Below the pieces are notes generated by a model that was given only the letters and a program-made list of their open reading frames with translations, was not told where the DNA came from and did not search any database. A stretch of 64,000 nt of DNA from Chitinophagaceae bacterium (GTDB lineage: Bacteria > Bacteroidota > Bacteroidia > Chitinophagales > Chitinophagaceae). A program made the translations under genes and the position numbers. Shown piece after piece: positions 231 through 57,275 of this stretch; position 1 is the stretch's first letter, and each line of letters opens with the position of its first letter. The stretch is from the NCBI GenBank assembly GCA_014879565.1, contig JACSRW010000032.1:186001-250000 (forward strand). The letters are read 5' to 3'.

Positions 231-3092
231 TTATTGTAACAGGAAGGCCACATCCTCTTCCGTCAGGGCTTTTACAAACCCTTCTTCCTCCGGGATCAGT
301 TCCCGGGACAGGTTTTTCTTCCGTTCCTGCAGCTGTATGATTTTTTCTTCAATGCTGTCGCGGCAAATCATTTTGTAGGCGAATACGGCCTGTTGCTGAC
401 CGATCCGGTGCGTCCGGTCAATAGCCTGCTGCTCCACGGCATGATTCCACCAGGGATCAAAAAGGAATACATAATCCGCCGCCGTCAGGTTCAGCCCGGC
501 ATTCCCGGCCTTAAGACTCAGCAAAAAAATACGCGGACTATCGGGATCATGGTTAAAGGCCTGTACCATCCGGTCACGCTCCCTGGCAGGGGTGGCGCCG
601 GTGAGTATAAAATGGGACATCCCCTCTTTTTTCAATAAAGCGGATAAACGATCCAGCATCCGGGTAAACTGGGAAAAGATCAGCACGCTGTGATCCGACA
701 GATTATTGATCAGCTCATCCATCAGTGCTGTGCTCTTTACAGAAGGCAGGTTGAGATGCCGGTACTCTTCCAGCAGGGAAGGATCATTGCAGATCTGCCT
801 GAGTTTGAGTATGCCTTCCAGCACCTGCAGTTTGCTTTTCTGCATACCCTGTTTTTTGATGATGTCACTCAGCGTGCCTTTTACCTGGTCACGGATTTCA
901 TTATATACCTCCTGCTGTTCGGGTTCCATCTGGCACCAGAGGGTGATTTCTGTTTTGGGGGGCAGGTCGCGGGCTACCTGTTCTTTAGTACGTCGCAAAA
1001 TAAATGGAGCCGTCAGCTTTTTGAGCGCGGCCACTTTCTTCTCATCCCGTTGCAGATCGATCGGGTCGGCGTATTCGCGTTTGAAAAATTCGCGTGAACC
1101 GAACATGCCGGGCAACACAAAATGTAGCTGACTGAACAAATCTGTCGTATTATTCATCACCGGCGTGCCACTGAGTACTACCCGTTTTTCTGCATTTAAT
1201 TGGTGGGTCAGCTTAGTGATCTGTGAAGACGGATTCTTGATGGTGTGACTTTCATCGAGGATGACAGCTATAAATGATTGAGTCAGGACAAATTCTTCAT
1301 CGGAGCGGATCGTGCCATAGGTGCTGATGATCACCTGTACACCTTCCTGCTCAAACAAAGCTTCTTCACGACTGCTTCCATGATAAATAACGGAACGTAT
1401 ACCCGGCGCGAACTTGTTGATCTCGTTCTGCCAGTTGTAGACCAGCGAGGCCGGACAAATGATCAGGATATTACCAGCCGTGTTGTTATCTGCGAGATAG
1501 GCTATATAGCAGATAGTCTGCAGGGTTTTACCCAATCCCATATCATCGGCGAGGAATACGCCGGCTTCGATCTCATCGAGCAACCGCATCCACTCGTACC
1601 CTTTTTGCTGGTAAGTGCGGAGATCGGCTTTTATGGTGGCCGGCAGGGTATACAATGGACTATCTGCCGTTTGCCAGTTCATCCATTTCTGCTTCCAGCC
1701 GGACGGAATGAATGACAAAGACAGTTGTTCTGCCTGGCTGCCATTTTCCAGGGCAATGAACACCCACTTCGGCACCCGGATCTGTTTGTTTTCAATCCGT
1801 GCATGTTTAATGATAATACCATAAGCTTTTTGCCAGTCTTCATCCAGCAGAGTAATGGTGCCGTCTTTCAACATCAGGGCCTGTTCGCCGGTACGGAGTA
1901 CTTTTTGTAATTCCTTATTACTGATCTCTTCTTTGCCAACCTTAAGTGAGAAGGAAAGAAGACACCAGCCTTTTTCTTCACTGATGTACTGGTACTGCGT
2001 TACCGGTTTTTCGGTGCTGTACCGGAAATGTTTGAGCATGTCCATACCCAATACCTGTATATCACGATCGAGTAAGGTGCGAAAAGCTTTGAGGAACCAA
2101 TGATTTTTGGCGGCATTGGCAAAACTCAGGTAATAATAACCGTTTGACTGATTGGGGAAACTGCCATGCAATTGTTCGATCTCCCAACGGATTGCTTTCT
2201 CTGCATCCTGATGACGACGGATACTGATCTCCTTGCCATCGCGGGTAACCGTCACTGTTTCCTCCCAGCGGCCATCCGCAATATGTCCGTCGTAATCAAA
2301 CTGAGGCGTGATCATCAGGAATTGTCCACTCAGCTCGCTGAACACTACCCGGCCCGTGGGCATTACGTCTACCTGGTCCGAGATCAGCAGGTTATTCCTG
2401 TTAACCGGGTAGCCTGCTAGTGGCCCCAGCACTTCCGCAATGAAACGGGACTGATCAAAAGCTTCTTTTTCCCAGTCGTATAACTGCACCCGGCTCAATA
2501 CCTGGTAATCGGAAAACTTCAACAGGAAATATTCATTCTTATGTTCAAGCAAAAAGCCATACTGGTTGAACTCAGCTAATGGGAAGGGGGTGCCATTGAG
2601 TTCAATCAGCGTTTGCAGGTACAACCAACCCCCGGGTGATTGCTGTACGTCAAATTTTAACTGCGGGGTATAATTACTGAATGTGCAGGGCGCTGTTTTT
2701 AATCGTTTCTCATCGCCTGCTACCGGTGTCTGGTGGTAACAGGAGATCATGGGCAACAACGGTTTCAGTGTTTGTAATTCCTGCAACAATTTACGCTCCA
2801 GTTGTAGTTGCAGTTGCTTTCTGAATTCCGCCTCATCCACGGTTGCCTGTTTTTTTAGCGCATGAAACAGCGCTGCTTTCAATTGGTCCACCTGGGCATC
2901 AGTAAAACGATTGAGGGAAGTAAAAAAACCAGAAGGAAGTTTGGGGTATTGTTTTTTTAATACACCCAGGTTGATTTTTTCCGTAGTATACACGGGATAT
3001 TTATCACCCCTGTCTGCCTGGAGCAGTCCGAAAATATGCCCGTTCTTTTTCAACTGGGCGGGCCGGAGTAAAAGGGCGGTTTTTTTATTCAT
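231..3092 (-). CDS. SNF2-family DEAD/DEAH-box helicase (RapA/HepA-like)
   Basis: The 953-residue protein has a large N-terminal region (about 1-490) without a motif I recognise, followed by a complete SNF2 ATPase. Walker A is DDMGLGKTLQT near residue 520, the DEAH-equivalent box is DESHTIKN near 612, and the C-terminal lobe ends with GLNLTAADYVFLFDPWWN and DRTHRIGQ near 896. Such proteins translocate on double-stranded DNA and displace bound proteins, for example stalled RNA polymerase. The longest frame begins with a TTG at 3116; I chose the ATG at 3092 (MNKKTALLLRP), which is a better start. A strong hairpin ends 30 bases upstream of this ATG, so the gene must have its own promoter or depend on read-through. 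Confidence 0.93.
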   Translation of the reverse strand: MNKKTALLLRPAQLKKNGHIFGLLQADRGDKYPVYTTEKINLGVLKKQYPKLPSGFFTSLNRFTDAQVDQLKAALFHALKKQATVDEAEFRKQLQLQLERKLLQELQTLKPLLPMISCYHQTPVAGDEKRLKTAPCTFSNYTPQLKFDVQQSPGGWLYLQTLIELNGTPFPLAEFNQYGFLLEHKNEYFLLKFSDYQVLSRVQLYDWEKEAFDQSRFIAEVLGPLAGYPVNRNNLLISDQVDVMPTGRVVFSELSGQFLMITPQFDYDGHIADGRWEETVTVTRDGKEISIRRHQDAEKAIRWEIEQLHGSFPNQSNGYYYLSFANAAKNHWFLKAFRTLLDRDIQVLGMDMLKHFRYSTEKPVTQYQYISEEKGWCLLSFSLKVGKEEISNKELQKVLRTGEQALMLKDGTITLLDEDWQKAYGIIIKHARIENKQIRVPKWVFIALENGSQAEQLSLSFIPSGWKQKWMNWQTADSPLYTLPATIKADLRTYQQKGYEWMRLLDEIEAGVFLADDMGLGKTLQTICYIAYLADNNTAGNILIICPASLVYNWQNEINKFAPGIRSVIYHGSSREEALFEQEGVQVIISTYGTIRSDEEFVLTQSFIAVILDESHTIKNPSSQITKLTHQLNAEKRVVLSGTPVMNNTTDLFSQLHFVLPGMFGSREFFKREYADPIDLQRDEKKVAALKKLTAPFILRRTKEQVARDLPPKTEITLWCQMEPEQQEVYNEIRDQVKGTLSDIIKKQGMQKSKLQVLEGILKLRQICNDPSLLEEYRHLNLPSVKSTALMDELINNLSDHSVLIFSQFTRMLDRLSALLKKEGMSHFILTGATPARERDRMVQAFNHDPDSPRIFLLSLKAGNAGLNLTAADYVFLFDPWWNHAVEQQAIDRTHRIGQQQAVFAYKMICRDSIEEKIIQLQERKKNLSRELIPEEEGFVKALTEEDVAFLLQ

Positions 3093-3121
3093 CGGGTGCA
3101 GGTAAAAAGTCTGCAAATAAA

Positions 3122-3166
3122 GGAAATACCGGTCAGATTTGATGGGCGTCTGACCGGTATATTTCC
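3122..3166 (-). terminator. Strong hairpin, terminator of the small gene at 3192-3422
   Basis: The arms at 3126-3137 and 3149-3160 are a perfect 12-bp inverted repeat (ATACCGGTCAGA) around an 11-base loop, and an outer GGAA/TTCC extension lengthens the stem. On the minus strand the hairpin is followed by TTTATTTG; on the plus strand it is followed by TTTATTTT, so it is T-rich on both sides. It lies between the stop of the 76-residue gene and the start of the helicase, and so also sits in the presumed leader of the helicase gene. Confidence 0.8.
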
Positions 3167-3191
3167 TTTATTTTACAAGGCCTTTACATGA

Positions 3192-3422
3192 TTAACTGAT
3201 TAGTTTCCAGGCCGGAGTCAACTCGGGCGAATGGTGAAATACCCGGTACTCATGGATCTCTTTGGTCTGCTTACTGAAATGGGTTTCTACAAAAAAACCG
3301 GGCAGGCGGAATAAAAAAATCATCTTATCAGATAATTCTTTTTTGGCCAGGGGCACACCCTCATTGACAACCGTGAATCGCTTTTCTTCCTTAGTCAGCA
3401 CAATAAATTCTGATAGTCTCAT
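3192..3422 (-). CDS. Small hypothetical protein, 76 aa
   Basis: I do not recognise the family. The protein is hydrophilic with no signal peptide or membrane segment, and begins MRLSEFIVLTKEEKRF. The composition (alternating charged and hydrophobic residues, suggesting a small alpha/beta or all-beta fold) and the ATG start look like a real gene. A strong terminator hairpin follows directly downstream, which supports an independent transcript. It is divergent from the aldolase gene across a 337-base gap. Small proteins of this kind that read like translation- or DNA-associated accessory factors are common in this phylum, but no role can be inferred. Confidence 0.6.
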   Translation of the reverse strand: MRLSEFIVLTKEEKRFTVVNEGVPLAKKELSDKMIFLFRLPGFFVETHFSKQTKEIHEYRVFHHSPELTPAWKLIS

Positions 3423-3759
3423 AGTTGCTCGTTTTAATACGGTGAATAAAAAAAGGCAAATACAAAAACCTGCTTTCTGTCAGGAATAATCCGGACATCG
3501 GCAAAAATCAATGAACTTAAGAGGCAGAGGCAATAAGTCTGAACTGAAAAATATGGCCCGTAACAGGCCGGAGGCAGGACAAATTTAACCGGGTTTCGGG
3601 TTCCGGCAAATTTAATTTCTCCGGCCTTCCCAGACAGTCCCGGGTGGCTGTTTATCCGTTGGCAGATAACGGCATCCTCACGTACACAAAGAAGAGATCC
3701 CATTGGTTCTCAGGTCAGAGCGGGACGGTTGGCTCTGTATGATTATTAATTTTATAACT
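3423..3759. other. Divergent intergenic region
   Basis: This 337-base gap separates the minus-strand 76-aa gene from the plus-strand aldolase gene and should hold promoters for both. I see no convincing TAnnTTTG match, tandem array, RNA gene or riboswitch-like fold. The 89-codon minus-strand frame at 3434-3703 has an unlikely composition and I did not accept it. The sequence GGGTTTCGGGTTCCGG near 3593-3608 is a short local repeat only. Confidence 0.4.
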
Positions 3760-5058
3760 ATGAATAACACACTTGATCCCCGTCTGATGCATCCCCGTGA
3801 ACAGATAACAATGGTGATTGGCCGTATTTACCGCCGCGGGCTTACCACTACATCCGGAGGAAATATTTCAATTATTGATGAAAACGGTGATATATGGGTA
3901 ACTCCCTCTGCGGTGGACAAGGGTTCGCTTACGGCGGATGATATTGTTTGTGTCAAAAAGGATGGTACCATCACCGGCCGGCATAAACCTTCATCCGAAT
4001 TTCCCTTTCACAAGTCTATCTATGAAAAAAGACCCGATATCCGGGCGGTGATACATGCGCATCCTCCGGCACTCGTATCTTTCAGTATTGTGCGGAAAAT
4101 ACCGGATACCCGGATTATTACACAGGCCCGTCATGTATGCGGTCCGATTGGGTATGCACCTTACCGGCTGCCAGGCAGCCAGGAGCTGGGAAATGTGATC
4201 GCCGATGAGTTTGAAAAGGGATTTAATGCCGTGATTATGGAAAATCATGGTACGGTGGTGGGTGGTACTAACCTGGCAGATTGTTTTCTCCGGTTTGAAA
4301 CCCTTGAATTTTCTGCACGGACCATTCTTTATGCGCATATGATCGGAGAACCTTCCTATCTCACGGAGGAGGAATTAGCTGATTTCGAAAAACAATTGCC
4401 GGATTTGCTGCCGGAAATGGATGTGACGGCTTACAGCAGCACGGAAAGAGCCATACGATCAGAAATATGTACCATGGTGCAGCGCGCCTGCAGCCAGGGT
4501 TTAATGACCAGTTCATATGGCACCGTTTCCCGTCGCTGGGAGGGGAATGACTTCCTGATTACCCCGACGGATGTGCCCCGCTGGGATCTGCAACCCAGGG
4601 ATATTGTACAGATCAGGGATGGTAAAAGAGAGAAAGGCAAACTGCCCAGCCGGTCCACGCATATTCATCAGCTCATTTATGAAACCCATCCGGAAATAAA
4701 CTCCATTATTCTCACACAGACACCTTACCTGATGGCCTTTGCCGCATCTGATGCGGTATTTAATGTACGAACTATCCCGGAAAGCTGGATTTTCCTGCAG
4801 GATGTTTGTACAGTTCCTTATGGAGGTCAGTTCCAGGGAAGCCGGCGGATACCGGAACTCTTATCCAAAAACAGTCCGGCGCTGCTGATTAAAAATGACT
4901 GTGCACTGGTCACCGGAGATAAACTGCTACAGACCTTTGATTATCTTGAAGTGGCTGAATTCAGTGCCAAATCACTTATTATGTCAGCCAGCCTGGGTAA
5001 ACTGGTGCCCATTAATGATGAACAGGTCAGTGAATTGCGACAGGCATTCCTCCGGTGA
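3760..5058 (+). CDS. Tandem class II aldolase/adducin-domain protein
   Basis: The 432-residue protein contains two class II aldolase/adducin domains in tandem. Domain 1 (about 1-210) carries the expected zinc site: TTTSGGNIS near the phosphate site, HAHPP for two histidines, and MENHGTVVGG for a third. Domain 2 (about 225-432) keeps the fold but has QTPYLM where HAHPP is expected and IKNDCALVTG where ENHG is expected, so its metal site is lost. Class II aldolases cleave phosphorylated ketoses such as fuculose- or rhamnulose-1-phosphate; the substrate here is unknown. The ATG at 3760 (MNNTLDPRLMHPREQ) was chosen over an upstream in-frame start at 3703, whose extra residues resemble translated non-coding DNA. 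The stop lies seven bases from the convergent histidine kinase gene. Confidence 0.85.
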   Translation: MNNTLDPRLMHPREQITMVIGRIYRRGLTTTSGGNISIIDENGDIWVTPSAVDKGSLTADDIVCVKKDGTITGRHKPSSEFPFHKSIYEKRPDIRAVIHAHPPALVSFSIVRKIPDTRIITQARHVCGPIGYAPYRLPGSQELGNVIADEFEKGFNAVIMENHGTVVGGTNLADCFLRFETLEFSARTILYAHMIGEPSYLTEEELADFEKQLPDLLPEMDVTAYSSTERAIRSEICTMVQRACSQGLMTSSYGTVSRRWEGNDFLITPTDVPRWDLQPRDIVQIRDGKREKGKLPSRSTHIHQLIYETHPEINSIILTQTPYLMAFAASDAVFNVRTIPESWIFLQDVCTVPYGGQFQGSRRIPELLSKNSPALLIKNDCALVTGDKLLQTFDYLEVAEFSAKSLIMSASLGKLVPINDEQVSELRQAFLR

Positions 5059-15130: not shown

Positions 15131-18100
15131 ATGATAACTATGAAAACGGTTACAAATTCCCGACTTATTTTTTTGCTTTTGTGTTTTCAGGCTATAGGTG
15201 TTTTGATTTTAAGTCTGGGCACCCGTTCCGGTATCGATCTTTCCGGACAAACAACCCGCTTTTTATACGGAATACTTGTTTTGTTCACCTTAGCCGTCAT
15301 ACGCTTGTTTTTTCTTTATCAAAAGGCGGATGTAAGAAAACGTGCCGGCGAAAAAAAATTTGAGACGCTGCTGGAGGCGGCGCCTGATGCGACCATTATT
15401 ACAAACACACAGGGAGTCATTACGATGGCTAACCGGCAGGCTGAAAAAATGTTTGGCTATACCAAACAGGAACTGACCGGTATGGAAGTGGAATGGCTGA
15501 TGCCGGGAGAATACCGGGACCAGCATACGCATTTACGGTCCGGGTATGCGCAAAAACCGGTTTCCCGCCCAATGGGCCATGGCAACATGGAACTTACAGC
15601 CATGCGCAAAGACGGCCGTCATGTTCCGGTTGAAATAAGCCTTTCTCCCATTGAAACCGGTGATGGCCATTTTGTAATGGCATCTGTAAGGGATATTTCC
15701 GGCAGAAAAGAGGCGAACGAAAGAACAGAACAACTCCTTACTATGGTGAATGAAGCCCGGGAGGCCATATTTGTCACCGACCGGAATATGGTAATCCAGA
15801 CCTGGAACAAAGGAGCAGAAAAATTATACGGATTCGACAGGCAGGAGGCCATAGGGAAAAACGCCCTTGCCATGTTACGGTCAGAAATAACGGAAACGGA
15901 ATACGCGGGTATGATTGAAGAAATTACCCGTAAGGATCACTGGGTGGCCGAGTTGAAAATGAGCCGTAAAAACGGGGAGGCAGTTTTTGTACACTCCTCG
16001 TTCAGTGTTATCCGGGATGCTGCAGGAGAAATGAAAGGATTTATTTCAGTCAGTTATGATATATCAAAAGAAAGGGATATCCAGGATAAACTCAATTACC
16101 TCGCCAGCGTTTCAGAGAATATAACAGAAGCGGTATTTTCTACCACTATACAGGACCGGTGTATTATAAGCTGGAATCAGGGCGCTGAAAAACTGTTCGG
16201 ATTAAAAAAGGAAGAGGTTATCGGGTTTACTGCGGATGAACTGGGGATCGTGAAACTGATGCCGGCAGAAGTGTCGGAAGTGAAGTCAGCCCTAATGTCG
16301 GAAGGGAGCTGGCAAAGCGAAAAGGAAATGTTCCGGAAAGACGGTACAGCATTCAGCGCCTGGGTAAAAGCCAGTGCTCTGCCGCATATTAATGGACAGC
16401 TGAAGTCATTTATATTTTTTGTCCAGGATATTACGGTAAAGAAACAACTGGAAGAAAGATTAAAGAGAGACAAAGAGGTGCTGGAAAAGGAAGTAAGATT
16501 ACGGACTTCAGAAATCAGGGCCAGTGAAGAAAGATATCGCCAGACACTTGATAATATGCTGGAAGGTGTGCAGATCATCGGGTTTGACGGAACGTATAAA
16601 TATATCAACAGGGCGGCGGCTTCCCAGGCGCATACCACCCCGGAAGAACTGGCAGGTTGCCGGATGACCGAAAAATTTCCAGGGATTGAGCACACAGAGG
16701 TTTACGGGCTGATCCTGAAATGTATGGAAGACCGGCAGCCGGTTCAGATGGAAAATGAGTTTCTGCTGCCTGACGGGGATAGAATCTGGGTGGAACTCAG
16801 TATTCAGCCTGTGCCGGAAGGTGTTTTTATCCTGAGTGTGGATATTTCCGAACGCAGAAAAGCAGAAGAAAGGGTGGGGGCAGAACAACAGAAGCTGGAT
16901 GCGATAGCGGCTTCTTCACCGGGTCTTATCTATTCTTTTCATTTGTCGCCTGAGGGGGCCTTTAGTTTTCTCTATGCCAGCCGGGCCCTGGAAGAGATAT
17001 TTGGCTATGGGGTTGAATATATGGATAAAGATGTCAGCGTAATTATGAATGCCACTGTAACAGAAGACAGGCAGGCATTTATGGACAGTATACTGGAATC
17101 TGCCAGATCCCTGAGCCCCTGGAACATGGAATTTCGTTACCATCATCCCGTTAAAGGCCTGATCTGGCTGGAGGGGAATTCCGTTCCGTCCCGGGCTGCT
17201 GATGGCGGGGTTACCTGGCATGGAGTCGTTATGGATGTTACGGGACGAAAACAGGCTGAAGCAGCCATCCGGGAGAGCGAAGAAAAATACCGTTCCGTGG
17301 TGGACAATGCCTTTGACGGGGTCCTGTTTTTTACACCGGATGGTACAATTACCGACTGCAATGCCAGCGCCTGTATGGTAATGGGTTATGAACGGGATGA
17401 GTTTATCGGTATGAATGTGACTGCACTTTATGATCCCGAAGACCTGCGGATCAGACCCCTTCAGATAGACGCAGTGGTGAAAGGAGAAATAATTTTTGAT
17501 CACCGCAGTCTGCACCGGAAAGACGGGTCAATCCTGGAAATTGAACTGGTTACCCGGGCCCTGCCCGACGGGAGACTGATTGCTATGGGACGAGACATTA
17601 CAGCCCAGAATATGGCGCTTTCCCAGCAAAATCTGCTTTCCTCCATTGTCAATTATTCCAATGACGCCATTGTCAGTACAGATTTTGAAGGCCGTATCAT
17701 CTCCTGGAATAAGGGGGCTGAAAAAATCTTTGGGTATACCGAAAAGCAGGTGAAGGGTACTGATTTCAGCCGGCGGTTTATGATGCGTGACCCTCATACG
17801 GGAACTTTAATGCTGGATAGCCTTAAAGAAGGGCATAGACTGGAAAACAGGGAAGCTTTCTGTTTATTAGATGAAGGAAGAGAAATCATCCTATCGGTTA
17901 CAGCCTCCCCCCTTATTGTCAACGGCGAATTGCGGGGGAGTTCCCTGATTATCCGGGATATTACCCGGCAAAAGGAAGATGAGAACCAGATCCGGCTGTC
18001 AAATCTCCGCTATGAGACGGTAGCCAAAGCAACCAGTGATGCGATCTGGGATTTTGATTATTCAACGTATAAAACTTTTATTGCAGGCACCGGTTACCAT

Positions 18101-19483
18101 GATCTGTTTGGATATCCGATTGTAAATGATTTTCTGCCGCCCGGTTTTTGGGAAAACTGTTTGCATCCCGATGATAAGGATAGAGTGCTGGCAGAGATGG
18201 ACCGGGCAAAAGAAAATAAGGCACTGGTGCAGTCACAGATTGAATACCGGTTCCGGAAAGCAGATGGCAGCTGGGCCTGCCTCAGTGACCGGTTTTTTAT
18301 CCTGCGGGATGCGGCAGGCAAACCGGTTCGTATGATGGGCGCCAAACAGGATATCACCCTGCGCAAACAGGCAGAAGATGAGCTGAAAAAGAAAATGATT
18401 GAGAATGAAATTCTGCTGGAAAGATTATCCGTTATCCTGAATACCCTACCCGCCAGCGTTGCCCTGCTCAACGAACAGGGAATGGTGGTGGAAGTGAATG
18501 AAGCCTGGAAAAAATTCGCGGATGAAAACGGATTTACCGATACAGATTATGGGGTCAACAACAGTTATCTGACCATCTCTACCCAGTCATTTGGCAACAA
18601 AGAAGCTCACGGTAAAGCGATTTCTCAGGGCATTAGTGCTGTCCTGCAAGGGAATGCACCTCTTTTTGAATTTGAATATCCCTGGCATCTGCCCGGTTTG
18701 CCCCGCTGGTTCCGGATAGTGGTCACCCCGCTTCGCGGACAGGAATTTACGGGGGCTGTGGTAATGAATATTGACATTTCCGACATCCGGCGGTTGGAAA
18801 AAGAAAGGATTGAAAGCAAGATAGAGGAACAAAAAAGAATTACAGAGGCGATGATAAAAGGACAGGAGAAGGAAAGAAACGCGATCGGTATTGAACTGCA
18901 CGATAATGTAAACCAGATACTGGTTGGAACTAAGGTTTTGCTCACCGTGGTAAGAGATGATCCCGACAGGTGCGGGGAACTGATACCTACCTGTATTGAT
19001 CATATTGCTATGGCAGTACAGGAAAACCGGAAAATTGCCCATGAGCTGGTCACGCCCAATTTGTCTGAAGAGACTTTGGTGCAACAGGTGACAAAACTCA
19101 GCCAGACCATGCTGCAAAACGCAGGGCTGAAGACCTATATCAATCACCAGAGCTTCCGGGAAGACCGGCTCAGTAAGGAAATGAAACTGGCCTTATACCG
19201 GATTATGCAGGAACAATGCACGAATATTATTAAATATGCGGATGCCGAACAGGTGATTATTTCCCTGGCCACCAAATCAGAAATGTTTTATATGCGGGTA
19301 GCGGATGATGGCAGAGGCATGGATCTTCGTAAAGTGACACATGGAATCGGGCTTAAAAATATTTCCAGCAGGCTGGGCGTGTTCGGAGGTACTATCAATG
19401 TGGATACGGCCCCCGGTCAGGGTTTTGCCCTTGAAATTGAAATACCACTCACCCCGGTGCCGGAGCCGTCGGAAGCCGGCTGA
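15131..19483 (+). CDS. Membrane sensor histidine kinase with nine PAS domains
   Basis: The 1450-residue protein has two N-terminal membrane segments (about 8-27 and 43-64) separated by a short outside loop. Nine PAS/PAC units follow; their PAC ends are marked by motifs like RDISGRKEA, YDISKERD, QDITVKKQ, VDISERRK, MDVTGRKQ, RDITAQN, RDITRQKE, QDITLRKQ and IDISDIRR near residues 190, 310, 431, 570, 700, 821, 941, 1073 and 1215. The kinase core is of the NarX/DegS type: HisKA_3 with ELHDNVNQ (His near 1255) and a short HATPase with GIGLKNISSRL. Such kinases normally pair with LuxR-type regulators, but none is encoded nearby, so this is an orphan. An ATG at 15140 is an equally good start. Confidence 0.93.
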   Translation: MITMKTVTNSRLIFLLLCFQAIGVLILSLGTRSGIDLSGQTTRFLYGILVLFTLAVIRLFFLYQKADVRKRAGEKKFETLLEAAPDATIITNTQGVITMANRQAEKMFGYTKQELTGMEVEWLMPGEYRDQHTHLRSGYAQKPVSRPMGHGNMELTAMRKDGRHVPVEISLSPIETGDGHFVMASVRDISGRKEANERTEQLLTMVNEAREAIFVTDRNMVIQTWNKGAEKLYGFDRQEAIGKNALAMLRSEITETEYAGMIEEITRKDHWVAELKMSRKNGEAVFVHSSFSVIRDAAGEMKGFISVSYDISKERDIQDKLNYLASVSENITEAVFSTTIQDRCIISWNQGAEKLFGLKKEEVIGFTADELGIVKLMPAEVSEVKSALMSEGSWQSEKEMFRKDGTAFSAWVKASALPHINGQLKSFIFFVQDITVKKQLEERLKRDKEVLEKEVRLRTSEIRASEERYRQTLDNMLEGVQIIGFDGTYKYINRAAASQAHTTPEELAGCRMTEKFPGIEHTEVYGLILKCMEDRQPVQMENEFLLPDGDRIWVELSIQPVPEGVFILSVDISERRKAEERVGAEQQKLDAIAASSPGLIYSFHLSPEGAFSFLYASRALEEIFGYGVEYMDKDVSVIMNATVTEDRQAFMDSILESARSLSPWNMEFRYHHPVKGLIWLEGNSVPSRAADGGVTWHGVVMDVTGRKQAEAAIRESEEKYRSVVDNAFDGVLFFTPDGTITDCNASACMVMGYERDEFIGMNVTALYDPEDLRIRPLQIDAVVKGEIIFDHRSLHRKDGSILEIELVTRALPDGRLIAMGRDITAQNMALSQQNLLSSIVNYSNDAIVSTDFEGRIISWNKGAEKIFGYTEKQVKGTDFSRRFMMRDPHTGTLMLDSLKEGHRLENREAFCLLDEGREIILSVTASPLIVNGELRGSSLIIRDITRQKEDENQIRLSNLRYETVAKATSDAIWDFDYSTYKTFIAGTGYHDLFGYPIVNDFLPPGFWENCLHPDDKDRVLAEMDRAKENKALVQSQIEYRFRKADGSWACLSDRFFILRDAAGKPVRMMGAKQDITLRKQAEDELKKKMIENEILLERLSVILNTLPASVALLNEQGMVVEVNEAWKKFADENGFTDTDYGVNNSYLTISTQSFGNKEAHGKAISQGISAVLQGNAPLFEFEYPWHLPGLPRWFRIVVTPLRGQEFTGAVVMNIDISDIRRLEKERIESKIEEQKRITEAMIKGQEKERNAIGIELHDNVNQILVGTKVLLTVVRDDPDRCGELIPTCIDHIAMAVQENRKIAHELVTPNLSEETLVQQVTKLSQTMLQNAGLKTYINHQSFREDRLSKEMKLALYRIMQEQCTNIIKYADAEQVIISLATKSEMFYMRVADDGRGMDLRKVTHGIGLKNISSRLGVFGGTINVDTAPGQGFALEIEIPLTPVPEPSEAG

Positions 19484-53043: not shown

Positions 53044-53901
53044 ATGGGCTATATCAAAAAAATTACAGCCGGGTGTATATCCTTTCTTTTCTGGATACAC
53101 CCGGTTTTTTCGCAGGTGGAAACCGATACGGTATTTTACCCCCGAGACAGCGTGATTGAACTGCCGCCTGACCCCACGACCATTTTTTTCCAGGAAGGGG
53201 AGAAGATTAAAACACCCGATAAAGTCAGGCTCCGGCTTAAAAACAAAAAGCAACAGACACTGGCCGCTTTTTTTAAAGAACTGGGCTATGGAGATCCGGA
53301 CAGCCCGCAATTCATGGATCATGTACTGAGTGACCTGGACAATGACGGTAAAAAGGAATTACTGATCTGGAATTATACCGGAGGCGCCCATTGCTGCGAT
53401 GAGATCTGGCTATTCCGCCCCCTTGGTAACAGTCTTTACCAATACACCCATAAACTCTTTGCCGGAAATACACAGATTACAGCCGGGAAAGAATTTGTAT
53501 ATAATTTTCACGAACAACTGGGCTATTTTTTTACCTGTTTTGCCTGCGGATATGAAGACAGTACCGGCCGGCTTGTTCCGTTGGCTGCCGTTTCTCTCCG
53601 GTATCAGCAAGGCAAACTGCTGGTTCAGCCCGGTGATACAGCTCTGAAAAAGATCATTAACGCGAACCTTTCCCTGCTGGGCAGCCGGCCTTTTCAGGCC
53701 CTGGATGAGGAGTGGTCACAGGATGATGGCTGGCGCAAAGAAATCGCCCTTAACCTGGCTGTATTTTATTATAGTTTCGGCAGGAACCTGTCTGCGACCC
53801 GCCAGCTTTTTCTCAAACATTACCGGCACCCGGATGCAGTAAGGTTCTGGGACCGTTTCCGGGAGCAAATCCGGTATATCCGCACGCAAAATGATTTCTG
53901 A
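53044..53901 (+). CDS. Secreted protein with EF-hand-like DxDNDGKKEL loop
   Basis: The 285-residue protein has a signal peptide (KKITAGCISFLFWIHPVFSQ). Around residue 100 is the motif LSDLDNDGKKELLIW followed by TGGAHCCDEIWLF. D-x-D-x-D-G-x-x-E loops bind calcium in FG-GAP/VCBS-type repeats; the CC pair just after is typical of a family of uncharacterised secreted proteins. The remainder has no motif I know. The ATG at 53044 gives a good signal peptide; an upstream in-frame start at 52987 lies inside the DUF2911 gene. Confidence 0.7.
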   Translation: MGYIKKITAGCISFLFWIHPVFSQVETDTVFYPRDSVIELPPDPTTIFFQEGEKIKTPDKVRLRLKNKKQQTLAAFFKELGYGDPDSPQFMDHVLSDLDNDGKKELLIWNYTGGAHCCDEIWLFRPLGNSLYQYTHKLFAGNTQITAGKEFVYNFHEQLGYFFTCFACGYEDSTGRLVPLAAVSLRYQQGKLLVQPGDTALKKIINANLSLLGSRPFQALDEEWSQDDGWRKEIALNLAVFYYSFGRNLSATRQLFLKHYRHPDAVRFWDRFREQIRYIRTQNDF

Positions 53902-53949
53902 TGCCGTGCAACGCTCCGGGATTTCCCCCTGTCAGTCATACAGTATAAG

Positions 53950-54513
53950 ATGACGGATGATCGCCAATTGGTAAGGAACTGCCTGAAAGGCCAGGCCGCA
54001 GCTCAAAAAGAACTCTACGAGAGATTCGCCGGGCTGATGATGGGTATATGCTACCGCTATACCAAATCGGTGACCGATGCGGAAGATGTTTTACAGGACG
54101 GATTTGTAAAAGTATTCAGACAGCTTCACAGTTTCAGATTTGATGGTGAACTGGGCGCCTGGATCAGGCGGATAATGGTTAATACGGCCATAAATTACCT
54201 GAAAAAACACAGTGGGTACCGTGCTGAACTTTCCTTTGACGCCCATGACAACCTGCATCCTGTTTCGGAAGAAGATGCGGAATTAAAACTGACTGCAAAA
54301 GAACTGGCGGAACTGATCCGGCAACTTCCTACAGGATATCAGACCATCTTTAACCTGCATGCGGTGGAAGGCTTCACTCATGTTGAAATCGGGCAGATGC
54401 TGGGTATTTCAGACGGCACTTCCCGCTCCCAATATGCCAGGGCCCGCCAGTTGCTGCTCAGCTGGATGGAAAAAAATGAGATGACAAAAAACAAGTTGTA
54501 TGCGGGAAAATGA
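53950..54513 (+). CDS. ECF RNA polymerase sigma factor
   Basis: The 187-residue protein has sigma region 2 (LYERFAGLMMGICYRYTKSV, DAEDVLQDGFVKVFRQL, GAWIRRIMVNTAINYLKKH) and region 4 (LIRQLPTGYQTIFNLHAVEG, EIGQMLGISDGTSRSQYARA). It has no extra domains, as usual for ECF factors. Its stop overlaps the start of the next gene by 14 bases, a typical sigma/anti-sigma arrangement. Confidence 0.95.
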   Translation: MTDDRQLVRNCLKGQAAAQKELYERFAGLMMGICYRYTKSVTDAEDVLQDGFVKVFRQLHSFRFDGELGAWIRRIMVNTAINYLKKHSGYRAELSFDAHDNLHPVSEEDAELKLTAKELAELIRQLPTGYQTIFNLHAVEGFTHVEIGQMLGISDGTSRSQYARARQLLLSWMEKNEMTKNKLYAGK

Positions 54514-55978
54514 ATTTGAAAAAGGGGTTAAAAAGACCATGGGGGATTTTCACCTGCAGCCCTCCGCCAGCGTCTGGCCGGAAGTGGAACGACGCATCCG
54601 CGATAGAAGAAGGCGAAGGGGATTCGTTTTCTGGTTCAGTCTTTCCGGGCTGCTCCTGGCCGGTCTGGCAGGTTGGTGGTGGCTGGGAGAAACCGGGCAA
54701 AAAAGAACTGCCTCCCATGCGGTCCATACCCAAAAACAGGTTTTTTCGCCGGCGACGAATGCGGAAAAGAGTAGTTACGCTGCTGAGAAGATTACAGAAA
54801 CAGCAAGTTCCGGTGATAAAAGCGTAACAACAGATACGAAAAACAGGGTGGAGAAAGGAACAATTTTGTACAAAAAAAGTACGGAAAAAGAGATTACACC
54901 CGTAAGCATAAAGAATCCGGGTCTTACCGCAAAGCCGGAACCGTCCCGGACGAATCACCGGCAAACAGGTAATCCGAAAAACAACAGCCGGCCCGTTAAC
55001 AAGAAGCCTGTTTCGCTTCCCGGAGTCTTACAGTCAAAACAGGAAGGGGAGCAAATAACCCCTGCATTATCAAATAAGCAAAACGTGGCAGCACGAAAAC
55101 CTGAAGGTGCAGATACAGCTGTTGCAATAAACAGTGAAAAGACAACTCCTGTGGGATTTACGGCAATCCCGGATACGGTCCGGAAGCTTGATATGGTACA
55201 AAAAAATGATTCCATCGCAATCAATGAAACAGCTGCCGGAAAAAGCAGCCAAAAGAAGAAGTCAGCCTGGGAAAAAGGGCTGTACCTGTCGGTAGGAAGA
55301 GCCGTTCTTACTGAGGGACTGGGAACTTTCGGCCAGAAAAGCATGGAATTTCAGAGTGGGGGAACGGTGTCAAATCCCGGCAATAGCAATATGAGTTATG
55401 CTGACAGTGTAGCGCTTACCGGAACCCACCTGCAGGCGGGATTTTATATACGGAGATACAGCGGAAAAAGAACCAGCTTCTCCCTTGGACTGGGCGGAGC
55501 TGTCTATGCCACCCGGCAGCGCACCGGAAATTATGTGGATACCAACCGGGCCGTGAGTTTTTACCAGCTTTCCGCCACCAGCGGGGGGTATTACCAGGCG
55601 GCCGGTTCCCGTCGTTATACTAACCGTTATATTTACCTGCAGACCCCCCTTTTCTGGCACTGGCAACTGAACAAGGGCAGGGATTTTCCCCTCATGGAAT
55701 GGGAATCGGGACTAATCCCCTCTTTCCTGGCCGGGTCGAGGGCACTGGTATATGACCCGGTTAATCATATTTTCTTCCGGGAAAAATCTGTGTATAACCG
55801 GTTCGGCCTGGCTGCACAAACCGGACTTAACCTGACTTTATTCCCCGAAAGCAAACACCCTTTGCGGGCTGGCCTTTATTATAATTACCATTTCAGCCAA
55901 TTGCAAAAAACCCGGCCTCCGGCTTTCAATCACCTAAGCGGCTGGGGACTGCAGCTGCGCTGGATTATTTCTAAATAA
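54500..55978 (+). CDS. Probable dual-membrane-spanning anti-sigma factor with outer membrane barrel
   Basis: The 492-residue protein combines three parts: a basic cytoplasmic N-terminus (1-40, ending RRIRDRRRRR), one inner-membrane span (41-62, GFVFWFSLSGLLLAGLAGWW), a long Lys/Ser/Thr/Pro-rich low-complexity linker (about 63-255), and a C-terminal beta-barrel-like domain (about 256-492, GLYLSVGRAVLTEGLG to LQLRWIISK). One polypeptide would then span both membranes. I recall that anti-sigma factors of this architecture, called Dma, were reported in Bacteroides; this is from memory. It overlaps the ECF sigma gene by 14 bases, so it is probably its anti-sigma factor. Confidence 0.8.
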   Translation: MRENEFEKGVKKTMGDFHLQPSASVWPEVERRIRDRRRRRGFVFWFSLSGLLLAGLAGWWWLGETGQKRTASHAVHTQKQVFSPATNAEKSSYAAEKITETASSGDKSVTTDTKNRVEKGTILYKKSTEKEITPVSIKNPGLTAKPEPSRTNHRQTGNPKNNSRPVNKKPVSLPGVLQSKQEGEQITPALSNKQNVAARKPEGADTAVAINSEKTTPVGFTAIPDTVRKLDMVQKNDSIAINETAAGKSSQKKKSAWEKGLYLSVGRAVLTEGLGTFGQKSMEFQSGGTVSNPGNSNMSYADSVALTGTHLQAGFYIRRYSGKRTSFSLGLGGAVYATRQRTGNYVDTNRAVSFYQLSATSGGYYQAAGSRRYTNRYIYLQTPLFWHWQLNKGRDFPLMEWESGLIPSFLAGSRALVYDPVNHIFFREKSVYNRFGLAAQTGLNLTLFPESKHPLRAGLYYNYHFSQLQKTRPPAFNHLSGWGLQLRWIISK

Positions 55979-56027
55979 GCTGCAACGGTATCGGTTGCGG
56001 CATTGTCAGAACTTCAAAGCCATTACA

Positions 56028-57275
56028 ATGCGAAAATTATCCTTCCTTTTTTTATTGTCGGTCCTGCTGCTGGGACAGTCCTGCCTTAAAGATTCGGTGA
56101 GATATACCTATACAATTGCTACGCCTGTATATAAAGAGAAGGCAGAAGTATATGCCAATATCCGTTCCAATGCCGCGGTGCTGCCCGAAAATCCGGGTAA
56201 AATATACCTGTATGGCAATTATATATTTCTCAGCGAAGTGGATAAAGGCGTACATATTATTGATAACAGCAACCCGGCACAGCCGGTGTTCAAAGCCTTT
56301 ATCAATATCCCGGGCAATCTGGATATGGCTGTAAAAGGGAATATCCTTTATGCAGACCTGTACACAGACCTGGTGGTCGTAGACATATCCGATCCACTGA
56401 ACGCACGGTTTGTGAAACATATTCCTCAGGTATTTCCGTACAGGAATTACGGTGGCTATTTTATTGCTGACAGTAACCGGATAATTGTAGACTGGATCCG
56501 GAAAGACACAACCGTGGATTATGATATGTATATGGGCTGGTATAAATCGGAAGTCATGCTCTATTCCGCTGTCAGCAATACAAACGCCCAGGGAGGGACC
56601 GCAGCAGTCAATCCCACCGGTGTAGGTGGTTCCATGGCCCGTTTCGGACTGGTGAATGATTATCTCTATTGTATTGATAATAACCAGTTGCACAGTTTTG
56701 ATATTGGCAACAGTGCTGATCCGGTACGCACTGCCAGTACCAGTATCGGCTGGGATATTGAAACCCTGTATCCCTTCCGGAATAAACTTTTCATTGGTTC
56801 TGCCACAGGCATGTTTATCTATGATATCAGTAACCCCGCCAGCCCGGCACGGGAGGGCCAGTTCGTTCATGCCCGCGCCTGTGATCCGGTGATTACTGAT
56901 GGTAATTACGCCTATGTTACACTGCGGGATGGGACCACCTGTACCGGCACCAGTAATCAACTGGACGTCGTGGATGTAAACAACATGTCATCGCCCTTCC
57001 TGCTTAAAAGTTACAATATGACCCATCCGCACGGGCTTTCCAAAGCGGGTAACCTGCTGTTTATCTGCGATGGCCGTGACGGGCTTAAAGTTTATGATGC
57101 CGCCCAACCCGGTAACCTGCAGCTGAAAAAACATTTCCGGGGGCTGGAAACCTTTGATGCCATTGCCTGGAATAATAACCTGATCGTGGTGGCCAAAGAG
57201 GGACTTTGTCAGTACGATATCAGTAACCCGGAGAATATCACCGAACGCAGCAGGATACCTGTACGCGGTAACTAA
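56028..57275 (+). CDS. LVIVD-repeat lipoprotein (beta-propeller)
   Basis: The 415-residue protein has a lipoprotein signal (LLSVLLLGQSC, Cys near 18). The body holds LVIVD-type repeats: GVHIIDNSNPAQPVF, LVVVDISDPLNARFV, MFIYDISNPASPAREG, LDVVDVNNMSSPFLL, LKVYDAAQPGNLQ and LCQYDISNPENITE. These form a beta-propeller on the cell surface or in the periplasm. The ATG at 56028 gives the signal; the upstream in-frame ATG at 55995 adds residues that look non-coding. It follows the anti-sigma gene by 49 bases and is likely part of the same operon. Confidence 0.9.
   Translation: MRKLSFLFLLSVLLLGQSCLKDSVRYTYTIATPVYKEKAEVYANIRSNAAVLPENPGKIYLYGNYIFLSEVDKGVHIIDNSNPAQPVFKAFINIPGNLDMAVKGNILYADLYTDLVVVDISDPLNARFVKHIPQVFPYRNYGGYFIADSNRIIVDWIRKDTTVDYDMYMGWYKSEVMLYSAVSNTNAQGGTAAVNPTGVGGSMARFGLVNDYLYCIDNNQLHSFDIGNSADPVRTASTSIGWDIETLYPFRNKLFIGSATGMFIYDISNPASPAREGQFVHARACDPVITDGNYAYVTLRDGTTCTGTSNQLDVVDVNNMSSPFLLKSYNMTHPHGLSKAGNLLFICDGRDGLKVYDAAQPGNLQLKKHFRGLETFDAIAWNNNLIVVAKEGLCQYDISNPENITERSRIPVRGN

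Follow-up and report, generated by a model that had tools for sequence, protein, structure and literature searches.

Trans-envelope signalling of the FecR/FecA type reports the state of the outer membrane to an extracytoplasmic function (ECF) sigma factor through several proteins. In the Dma proteins of Bacteroides thetaiotaomicron (the pairs Dma1/Das1 and Dma2/Das2), an N-terminal sigma-binding domain, a transmembrane helix, a disordered tether and a C-terminal barrel are found in this order and with an adjacent ECF gene, according to the sections of PMC13088901 cited here; in the same sections, loss of Dma2 induces das2 and the genes next to dma2, where DUF4943/DUF4858 proteins are encoded, and nigD1 is induced in a dma1 mutant. 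A second case is the Phocaeicola vulgatus pair M0N98_03761/03760, which is described as similar to an ECF pair in Bacteroides fragilis and is induced by an antibacterial toxin, with NigD orthologues (putative lipoproteins) among the toxin-induced genes (PMC9308784, in the sections cited). The ecfO-reo pair likewise has nigD genes in its regulon (PMC13114119, in part). As regards the cytoplasmic end, the class II anti-sigma domain of CnrY from Cupriavidus metallidurans consists of two helices that bind sigma4 and sigma2 (PMC7406223, in part). Here we describe a locus from a Chitinophagaceae bacterium, in a window of 64,000 nucleotides (the whole stretch of DNA that was analysed: contig JACSRW010000032.1, positions 186,001 to 250,000), which we consider likely to encode an autoregulated circuit of an ECF sigma factor and a Dma-type anti-sigma factor, with an LVIVD-repeat lipoprotein and a small barrel as its output.

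On the features tested, and when compared with the published description, the window protein fits a Dma-type anti-sigma factor. The likeness to Dma1/Das1 and Dma2/Das2 lies in the domain order and the adjacent ECF gene, as far as the cited description goes, whereas the genes downstream are different ones, namely those for the LVIVD lipoprotein and the small barrel. A preliminary description of this DNA had proposed a relative of the Dma proteins paired with an ECF sigma factor and followed by a different operon. Of this, the Dma-type build, the pairing and the different operon are borne out by the architecture, the adjacent sigma gene, the Pfam match of the lipoprotein and the model of the barrel. 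In the FecR/FecA systems several proteins form the chain that is a single polypeptide here. No FecR domain was found in the anti-sigma protein by Pfam at E up to 10, and a FecR-type reading was set aside. With CnrY the window protein shares a short two-helix cytoplasmic part, a likeness of size and layout only. The Phocaeicola anti-sigma factor is also predicted to span the periplasm and to end in a C-terminal barrel; the species and the targets differ, and no LVIVD/small-barrel operon is described in the sections cited. What is new here is the circuit, meaning the promoter and the LVIVD/small-barrel targets, while the kind of protein is already known. In the open-licence literature searched, with queries that did not include the letters of the promoter, we found no account of this promoter, of the LVIVD/small-barrel core or of the link to lipoproteins for a system of this kind in this group, and a word search of the available text of PMC13088901 found no promoter sequence. 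Sequence comparison yields a concrete promoter and a short list of conserved core targets for a Dma-type circuit. It also hints at something shared with the published pairs of the Bacteroidales, for which the cited sections place NigD putative lipoproteins among the induced genes.

The shared architecture (PMC13088901) could also be taken to mean that the protein regulates vesiculation in the way that Dma1 and Dma2 do in B. thetaiotaomicron. We regard this as unlikely: the genes downstream differ from those of the Bacteroides loci, and the published Dma1 and Dma2, as described in the sections cited, already act by different routes.

The locus is laid out in Table 1. The sigma gene is matched by Sigma70_r2 (3.3e-17) and Sigma70_r4_2 (1.3e-14) in Pfam and by TIGR02937 (2.9e-26). 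The anti-sigma reading frame begins inside it, and the length of the overlap is 14 nt in 17 of the 18 named related loci and 11 nt in the remaining one; this recurrence suggests, at the level of sequence, that the two genes are translated in a coupled manner.

Table 1. The sigma/anti-sigma locus and its neighbours, in window coordinates
Feature	Position	Strand	Basis or remark
FG-GAP-like secreted protein, weak Pfam match	53044..53901	+	upstream neighbour of P1, not under P1
Predicted cognate ECF promoter P1, TGCAAC-N17-TGTCA	53907..53934	+	15 nt before sigma ATG
ECF sigma factor, 187 aa	53950..54513	+	Pfam, NCBIfam
Dma-type anti-sigma factor, 492 aa, ATG start	54500..55978	+	architecture, model, fold match
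Cytoplasmic part, residues 1-43, candidate sigma-binding domain	54500..54628	+	model helices, highest conservation
Predicted inner-membrane span, residues 44-65, limits approximate	54629..54694	+	single hydrophobic peak, model helix
Predicted disordered periplasmic linker, residues 66-252 (187 residues)	54695..55255	+	pLDDT <50
Predicted C-terminal 8-stranded outer-membrane barrel, residues 257-491	55268..55972	+	model, PDB fold matches, PF13568 in relatives
Promoter copy P2, between anti-sigma and LVIVD genes	55981..56008	+	exact; LVIVD ATG 19 nt on
LVIVD-repeat lipoprotein, 415 aa, lipobox Cys19 then LKD	56028..57275	+	Pfam LVIVD, alignment
Predicted small outer-membrane barrel, 189 aa	57282..57851	+	AlphaFold2

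The evidence for autoregulation comes from the two copies of the promoter. At P1, TGCAAC, a spacer of 17 bases and TGTCA are exact in all 18 loci compared, including the window, with the ATG 14-20 bases on. In a second set of 28 loci the site is exact in 24 and has one mismatch in 4; a further locus, L077, was excluded because its match begins in the middle of the protein, and has an exact site at 60-87. The copy at P2 was followed through the same sets. Among the 19 loci of the first set, 12 have an exact copy and 4 a copy with one mismatch. P2 is present with at most one mismatch in all 15 of the loci that have LVIVD and/or the small barrel downstream, the three loci without it (L036, L044 and L046) have no LVIVD or barrel match, and in L041, where P2 has one mismatch, the contig is too short to show the next gene. 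In the second set, the 18 loci with LVIVD directly downstream include 9 with an exact P2, 4 with one mismatch and 1 that is exact with an 18-base spacer. The 11 loci of this set without an adjacent downstream LVIVD have no 17-spaced site at up to one mismatch, one of them (L075) having a one-mismatch site with a 16-base spacer. By comparison, a site with at most one mismatch occurs on one strand in 8 of 5400 shuffled 300-base windows. In the organism's own genome (3,425,919 bases) the only two exact copies of TGCAAC-N17-TGTCA are P1 and P2. Simple arithmetic from the base count gives an expectation of about 1.6, so that the weight rests on position and conservation and not on number. The ECF sigma factor probably drives its own gene, LVIVD and the small barrel, as judged from these sites.

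The preliminary description had also read the anti-sigma protein as a basic cytoplasmic end joined to a C-terminal barrel through a single inner-membrane span and a linker of some 190 residues, and had noted that its gene overlaps the ECF gene. Closer analysis agrees with all of these. The N-terminal 40 residues have a net charge of +5, and hydrophobicity peaks only once (Kyte-Doolittle score 1.59 for the 19 residues from residue 41), as it does in 18 of the 19 aligned rows, the window included; in L045 a second, weak peak lies within the barrel. The linker of 187 residues is poor in hydrophobic residues and rich in small and polar ones. AlphaFold2, run with the 19 aligned sequences, predicts helices at residues 5-14 and 26-65 (pLDDT blocks of 51-76), followed by residues 66-252 with a predicted local distance difference test score (pLDDT) below 50, which we interpret as a disordered tether. 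Twelve strand segments then follow between residues 257 and 491, which we grouped into eight main strands. The strand blocks are mostly at pLDDT 84-97, and 123 residues reach 90. The first long barrel loop (275-300) falls below 50, and the overall predicted template modelling score (pTM) is low, at 0.47, because of the disorder. The long loops 272-305, 343-370 and 415-434 are all on one side of the barrel and the turns on the opposite side are shorter, as in outer-membrane barrels. Fold comparison places the barrel with those of PagL, NspA and OmpA at Z 14-16. The structure prediction that had been proposed beforehand as a check, with a missing barrel as the refuting outcome, did return a barrel.

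Searches of Pfam and NCBIfam with the window protein gave no significant match; among its 18 aligned relatives, 16 match OMP_b-brl_2 (PF13568) at E up to 1 (best 2.9e-11), a match that the window protein does not share. A search of PDB sequences with the anti-sigma profile gave one marginal match, a deacetylase at E 0.026, and CnrY was not among the matches of this sequence-level search with the whole profile. In size and layout the cytoplasmic part, residues 1-43 with helices at 5-14 and from 26 onward, corresponds to the two helices in fewer than about 50 residues that are given for class II in the cited part of PMC7406223. We infer that the N-terminus binds the sigma factor because of the 14-nt overlap, the high conservation of the cytoplasmic part and this class II-like layout of two helices.

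It could be argued that the protein is a conventional anti-sigma factor with a single span, in which the C-terminal domain either remains periplasmic or is released by cleavage and inserted on its own, leaving the two membranes without a continuous link. The two-membrane placement of the window protein rests on prediction, and the same profile finds much shorter genes beside ECF genes in other families (225-317 aa, described below). However, the barrel strands are predicted with confidence, three long loops lie on one side with shorter turns on the other, and the full chain is kept in all 19 aligned rows. We consider this alternative improbable, and set it aside.

The whole architecture is present in 19 of 19 rows, the window included, and its parts are conserved to very different degrees: the mean pairwise identity is 0.50 in the cytoplasmic part, 0.29 in the barrel, 0.25 in the membrane helix and 0.14 in the linker. 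The 18 related loci were found by a scan of GTDB contigs, and include Terrimonas pollutisoli and Ferruginibacter paludis. An ECF gene adjoins the anti-sigma gene in the window and in all 18 of them, and in a phylum-wide profile search an ECF gene lies upstream in 28 of 29 loci, the exception (L347) being a match to the C-terminal part only. Matches to the anti-sigma profile beside ECF genes occur throughout the class, and 150 of the 298 genomes of the order have a match at 1e-5. The organism's own genome has only one anti-sigma homologue at E 1e-5.

The proposed circuit would work as follows. The two N-terminal helices would keep the sigma factor bound at the inner membrane, as the architecture and conservation suggest, and the linker, which is long enough to cross the periplasm, would tether them to the barrel in the outer membrane. 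A change in the outer membrane that is felt by the barrel, or a failure of the barrel to assemble, may then be transmitted through the linker, either as a pull or by cleavage. The released sigma factor would transcribe its own operon from P1 and the lipoprotein/barrel pair from P2, and in many relatives it would also transcribe a set of small lipoproteins that is specific to the species. On this basis the LVIVD protein and the small barrel would be the core output of the circuit, and they may possibly be feedback partners of the sensor as well.

The LVIVD repeats (PF08309) are matched at 75.6 bits, against a cut-off of 20.2, in four stretches with E 1.8e-21, and the protein is far better conserved than the sensor, relatives being 49-67% identical to that of the window. 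Besides the lipidated Cys19, all 12 sequences compared share Cys285, Cys305 and Cys347. A search of PDB sequences with the LVIVD profile gave zero matches. The small barrel has no significant match in Pfam or NCBIfam, and is modelled by AlphaFold2 with ten strand segments, a mean pLDDT of 87 and a pTM of 0.76. Common descent of the small barrel and the anti-sigma barrel was considered and is not claimed, the profile comparison being weak (probability 22%). The small barrel follows LVIVD in most related loci: downstream of the anti-sigma gene, LVIVD is matched in 11 and the small barrel in 12 of 18 loci, some of whose contigs end too early to tell. The entire operon is present in Terrimonas pollutisoli (L034), while Ferruginibacter paludis (L045) has the sigma, anti-sigma and barrel genes and lacks LVIVD. 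Anti-sigma matches at E 1e-20 or below occur in 46 genomes of the same family, counting the organism's own, and in 30 of these LVIVD lies immediately downstream.

In one related locus (L047), two tandem small-barrel matches follow the anti-sigma gene at 2969-4227, with no LVIVD match there, which implies that the barrel and LVIVD are separable in loss.

LVIVD genes that are not linked to a close anti-sigma gene provide a further view of the promoter. Of seven such genes examined, a sample that leaves aside other second copies such as those in G183 and G218, the site is exact in four (those of G118, G321 and G158 and the second of the G281 copies) and has one mismatch in two (those of G295 and G197), giving the motif in six of seven. 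Four genomes that lack a close anti-sigma gene were also examined; of their LVIVD genes, that of G279 has a one-mismatch site and those of G189, G285 and G273 have none.

A related arrangement is seen in another family, f8, in which five of the five loci fetched have the order LVIVD-ECF-Dma, with a barrel gene divergent from LVIVD. These five were chosen because their two matches lay close together, and the divergent barrel matches the small-barrel profile and need not be an orthologue. The intergenic region between LVIVD and the divergent barrel carries GGCAAC-N17-CGTTT. Fifteen of the 19 f8 genomes with an LVIVD match were sampled, five of which supplied the pattern. In 13 of the 15 the site immediately precedes LVIVD, in G187 it is found only in the orientation of the divergent gene, and G172 lacks it; in the ten genomes that did not supply the pattern, this amounts to eight before LVIVD, one divergent only and one missing. 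Judged from these sequences, the -35 core and the spacer are kept between f8 and the window's own family, the -10 element is changed, and LVIVD is still the predicted target.

The exact promoter is not general to Dma genes. In the stretches searched before 28 ECF genes that lie beside matches of the profile (within L333-L361), TGCAAC-N17-TGTCA was not found exactly in any, and was found with one mismatch in two (L336 and L341). Two distant Dma genes do have the exact promoter nearby, in L294 (G058) after the anti-sigma gene and in L302 (G323) before the ECF gene.

The five short genes mentioned above lie in L342, L346, L349, L354 and L356, which belong to other families. They were found by the Dma profile beside ECF genes, and their products of 225-317 aa are short for a linker and barrel of the usual kind. 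An N-terminal PS-type motif is present in four of the five translations, and is not seen in the printed start of L354; the only one of the five scanned, from L342, has no Pfam match. Upstream of the ECF genes of all five is GCAAC-N17-CATCT, a third variant of the -10 element with the spacer unchanged.

Genome-wide counts indicate that the target set is wider in relatives. In 47 genomes with a close anti-sigma gene, meaning a strong match, there are 238 exact motif matches as compared to 47 for the reversed pattern, while in 43 genomes of the same family without one (no match or weak matches only) there are 65 as compared to 30. Among the matches listed, 50 TGCAACG sites lie outside the anti-sigma operon, including those before unlinked LVIVD genes. 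An open reading frame starts within 60 nt in 38 of them; the gene that follows encodes a lipoprotein by our lipobox rule in 31, with another exported protein in 4 more, and four of the 50 precede LVIVD-type genes. Two controls were used. For TGCAAC[ACT] sites, taken as the first 20 non-operon sites in order among the matches listed, a lipoprotein follows in 2 of 20 (Fisher p 1.2e-4). The other control took TGCAACG sites from genomes that lack a close anti-sigma gene, omitting two beside distant Dma genes (L286 and L294), and here a lipoprotein follows in 1 of 20 (Fisher p 9.3e-6). Sites in these tests are partly homologous between genomes and hence not independent, and the lipobox rule is home-made. 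When applied to the 172 genes of the window and of L017-L030, a set in which LVIVD operons are included, it scores 24 as lipoprotein genes. A Pfam scan of ten downstream proteins (eight lipoproteins and two barrel-like proteins) matched DUF4397 once, RHS repeat twice and LVIVD once, and left six unmatched.

AAC and GTC cores are common to ECF promoters generally, and it might be supposed that TGCAAC-N17-TGTCA belongs to another ECF sigma factor, which happens to control the operon. In keeping with this, the roughly twofold excess over the reversed control persists in genomes without a close Dma gene, and in one genome with only a weak Dma match (G299) TGCAACG-N16-TGTCA stands directly before another ECF gene (L293). 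The enrichment is nevertheless stronger where a close Dma gene is present, P1 precedes the sigma gene in all 18 loci, and the link to lipoproteins is lost in genomes without a close Dma gene. We therefore give this explanation little credence, and retain the ECF sigma factor of the locus as the one that would recognise P1 and P2.

Taking the counts in relatives together with the locus, we suggest tentatively, and with rather less than even confidence, that the Dma-type sensors of the Chitinophagales act as a lipoprotein homeostat. Outer-membrane lipoproteins and small barrels would make up most of the regulon. Its ancient core would be the LVIVD propeller lipoprotein and the small barrel, which would have evolved together with the promoter and might act back on the barrel of the sensor. 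A different possibility, which we hold to be doubtful, is that the barrel serves as a bait for outer-membrane assembly instead of sensing a ligand: when its insertion or the delivery of lipoproteins fails, the domain left unassembled in the periplasm would provoke cleavage of the chain and so free the sigma factor. The output, lipoproteins and small barrels, would then be the cargo classes of the failing machinery, and the motif sites do precede lipoproteins and a few barrel-like proteins. The sequence of the barrel is also variable, as would be expected without a fixed ligand. For the related Phocaeicola pair, envelope stress was thought by its authors to be the likely signal, and the toxin that induces the pair also induced many of the genes induced by a BamA inhibitor (PMC9308784, in the sections cited). 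Against this, extra lipoprotein genes would worsen an overload rather than relieve it, and both the cleavage step and a protease site are purely hypothetical here.

Several observations weigh against the circuit as proposed, or restrict it. The N-terminal helices are modelled with moderate confidence only (pLDDT blocks of 55-76), and the sigma factor has no assignment to ECF21, the group of the cognate sigma factors of Dma proteins, with Pfam and NCBIfam giving general ECF matches only. Of the 18 loci in the second set whose anti-sigma gene is followed directly by LVIVD, 4 lack P2 (L060, L063, L066 and L076); in these, LVIVD could be transcribed from P1. LVIVD is not an exclusive partner: a match at 1e-60 is found in 183 of the order's 298 genomes, and among the 46 same-family genomes considered above it is elsewhere in 6, has no match at 1e-60 in 9, and in G130 is matched at an unlisted place. 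The seventh of the unlinked LVIVD genes, that of G271, lies beside another Dma-like gene and has no site in about 400 bases. Exact matches of the f8 type are not enriched genome-wide (98, with 76 for the reversed control), so only the position of the f8 site is telling. Finally, the organism's own genome has 36 one-mismatch sites in addition to the two exact ones, a total of 38 as compared to 14 for the reversed pattern, and of the 31 of these 36 that were examined (L110-L137 and L221-L223) none precedes a lipoprotein gene and most fall inside long open frames. The wide target set therefore belongs to the relatives, and in the organism itself the circuit looks, from its sequence, to be largely confined to the locus, that is, to the sigma factor, the anti-sigma factor, the LVIVD lipoprotein and the small barrel.

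Three minor observations may be added. One of the 31 sites, L112 (contig C1, 47414-47441), lies 26 nt ahead of an ATG from which an exported product of 491 aa or more would be read, and is the only one with an evident export signal downstream. The FG-GAP-like gene occupies the place upstream of P1 in 5 of the 18 loci (L031-L033, L039 and L042). Elsewhere in the window, at 15131-19483, there is a 1450-aa open reading frame that, to judge from its translation, resembles a histidine kinase with many PAS domains.

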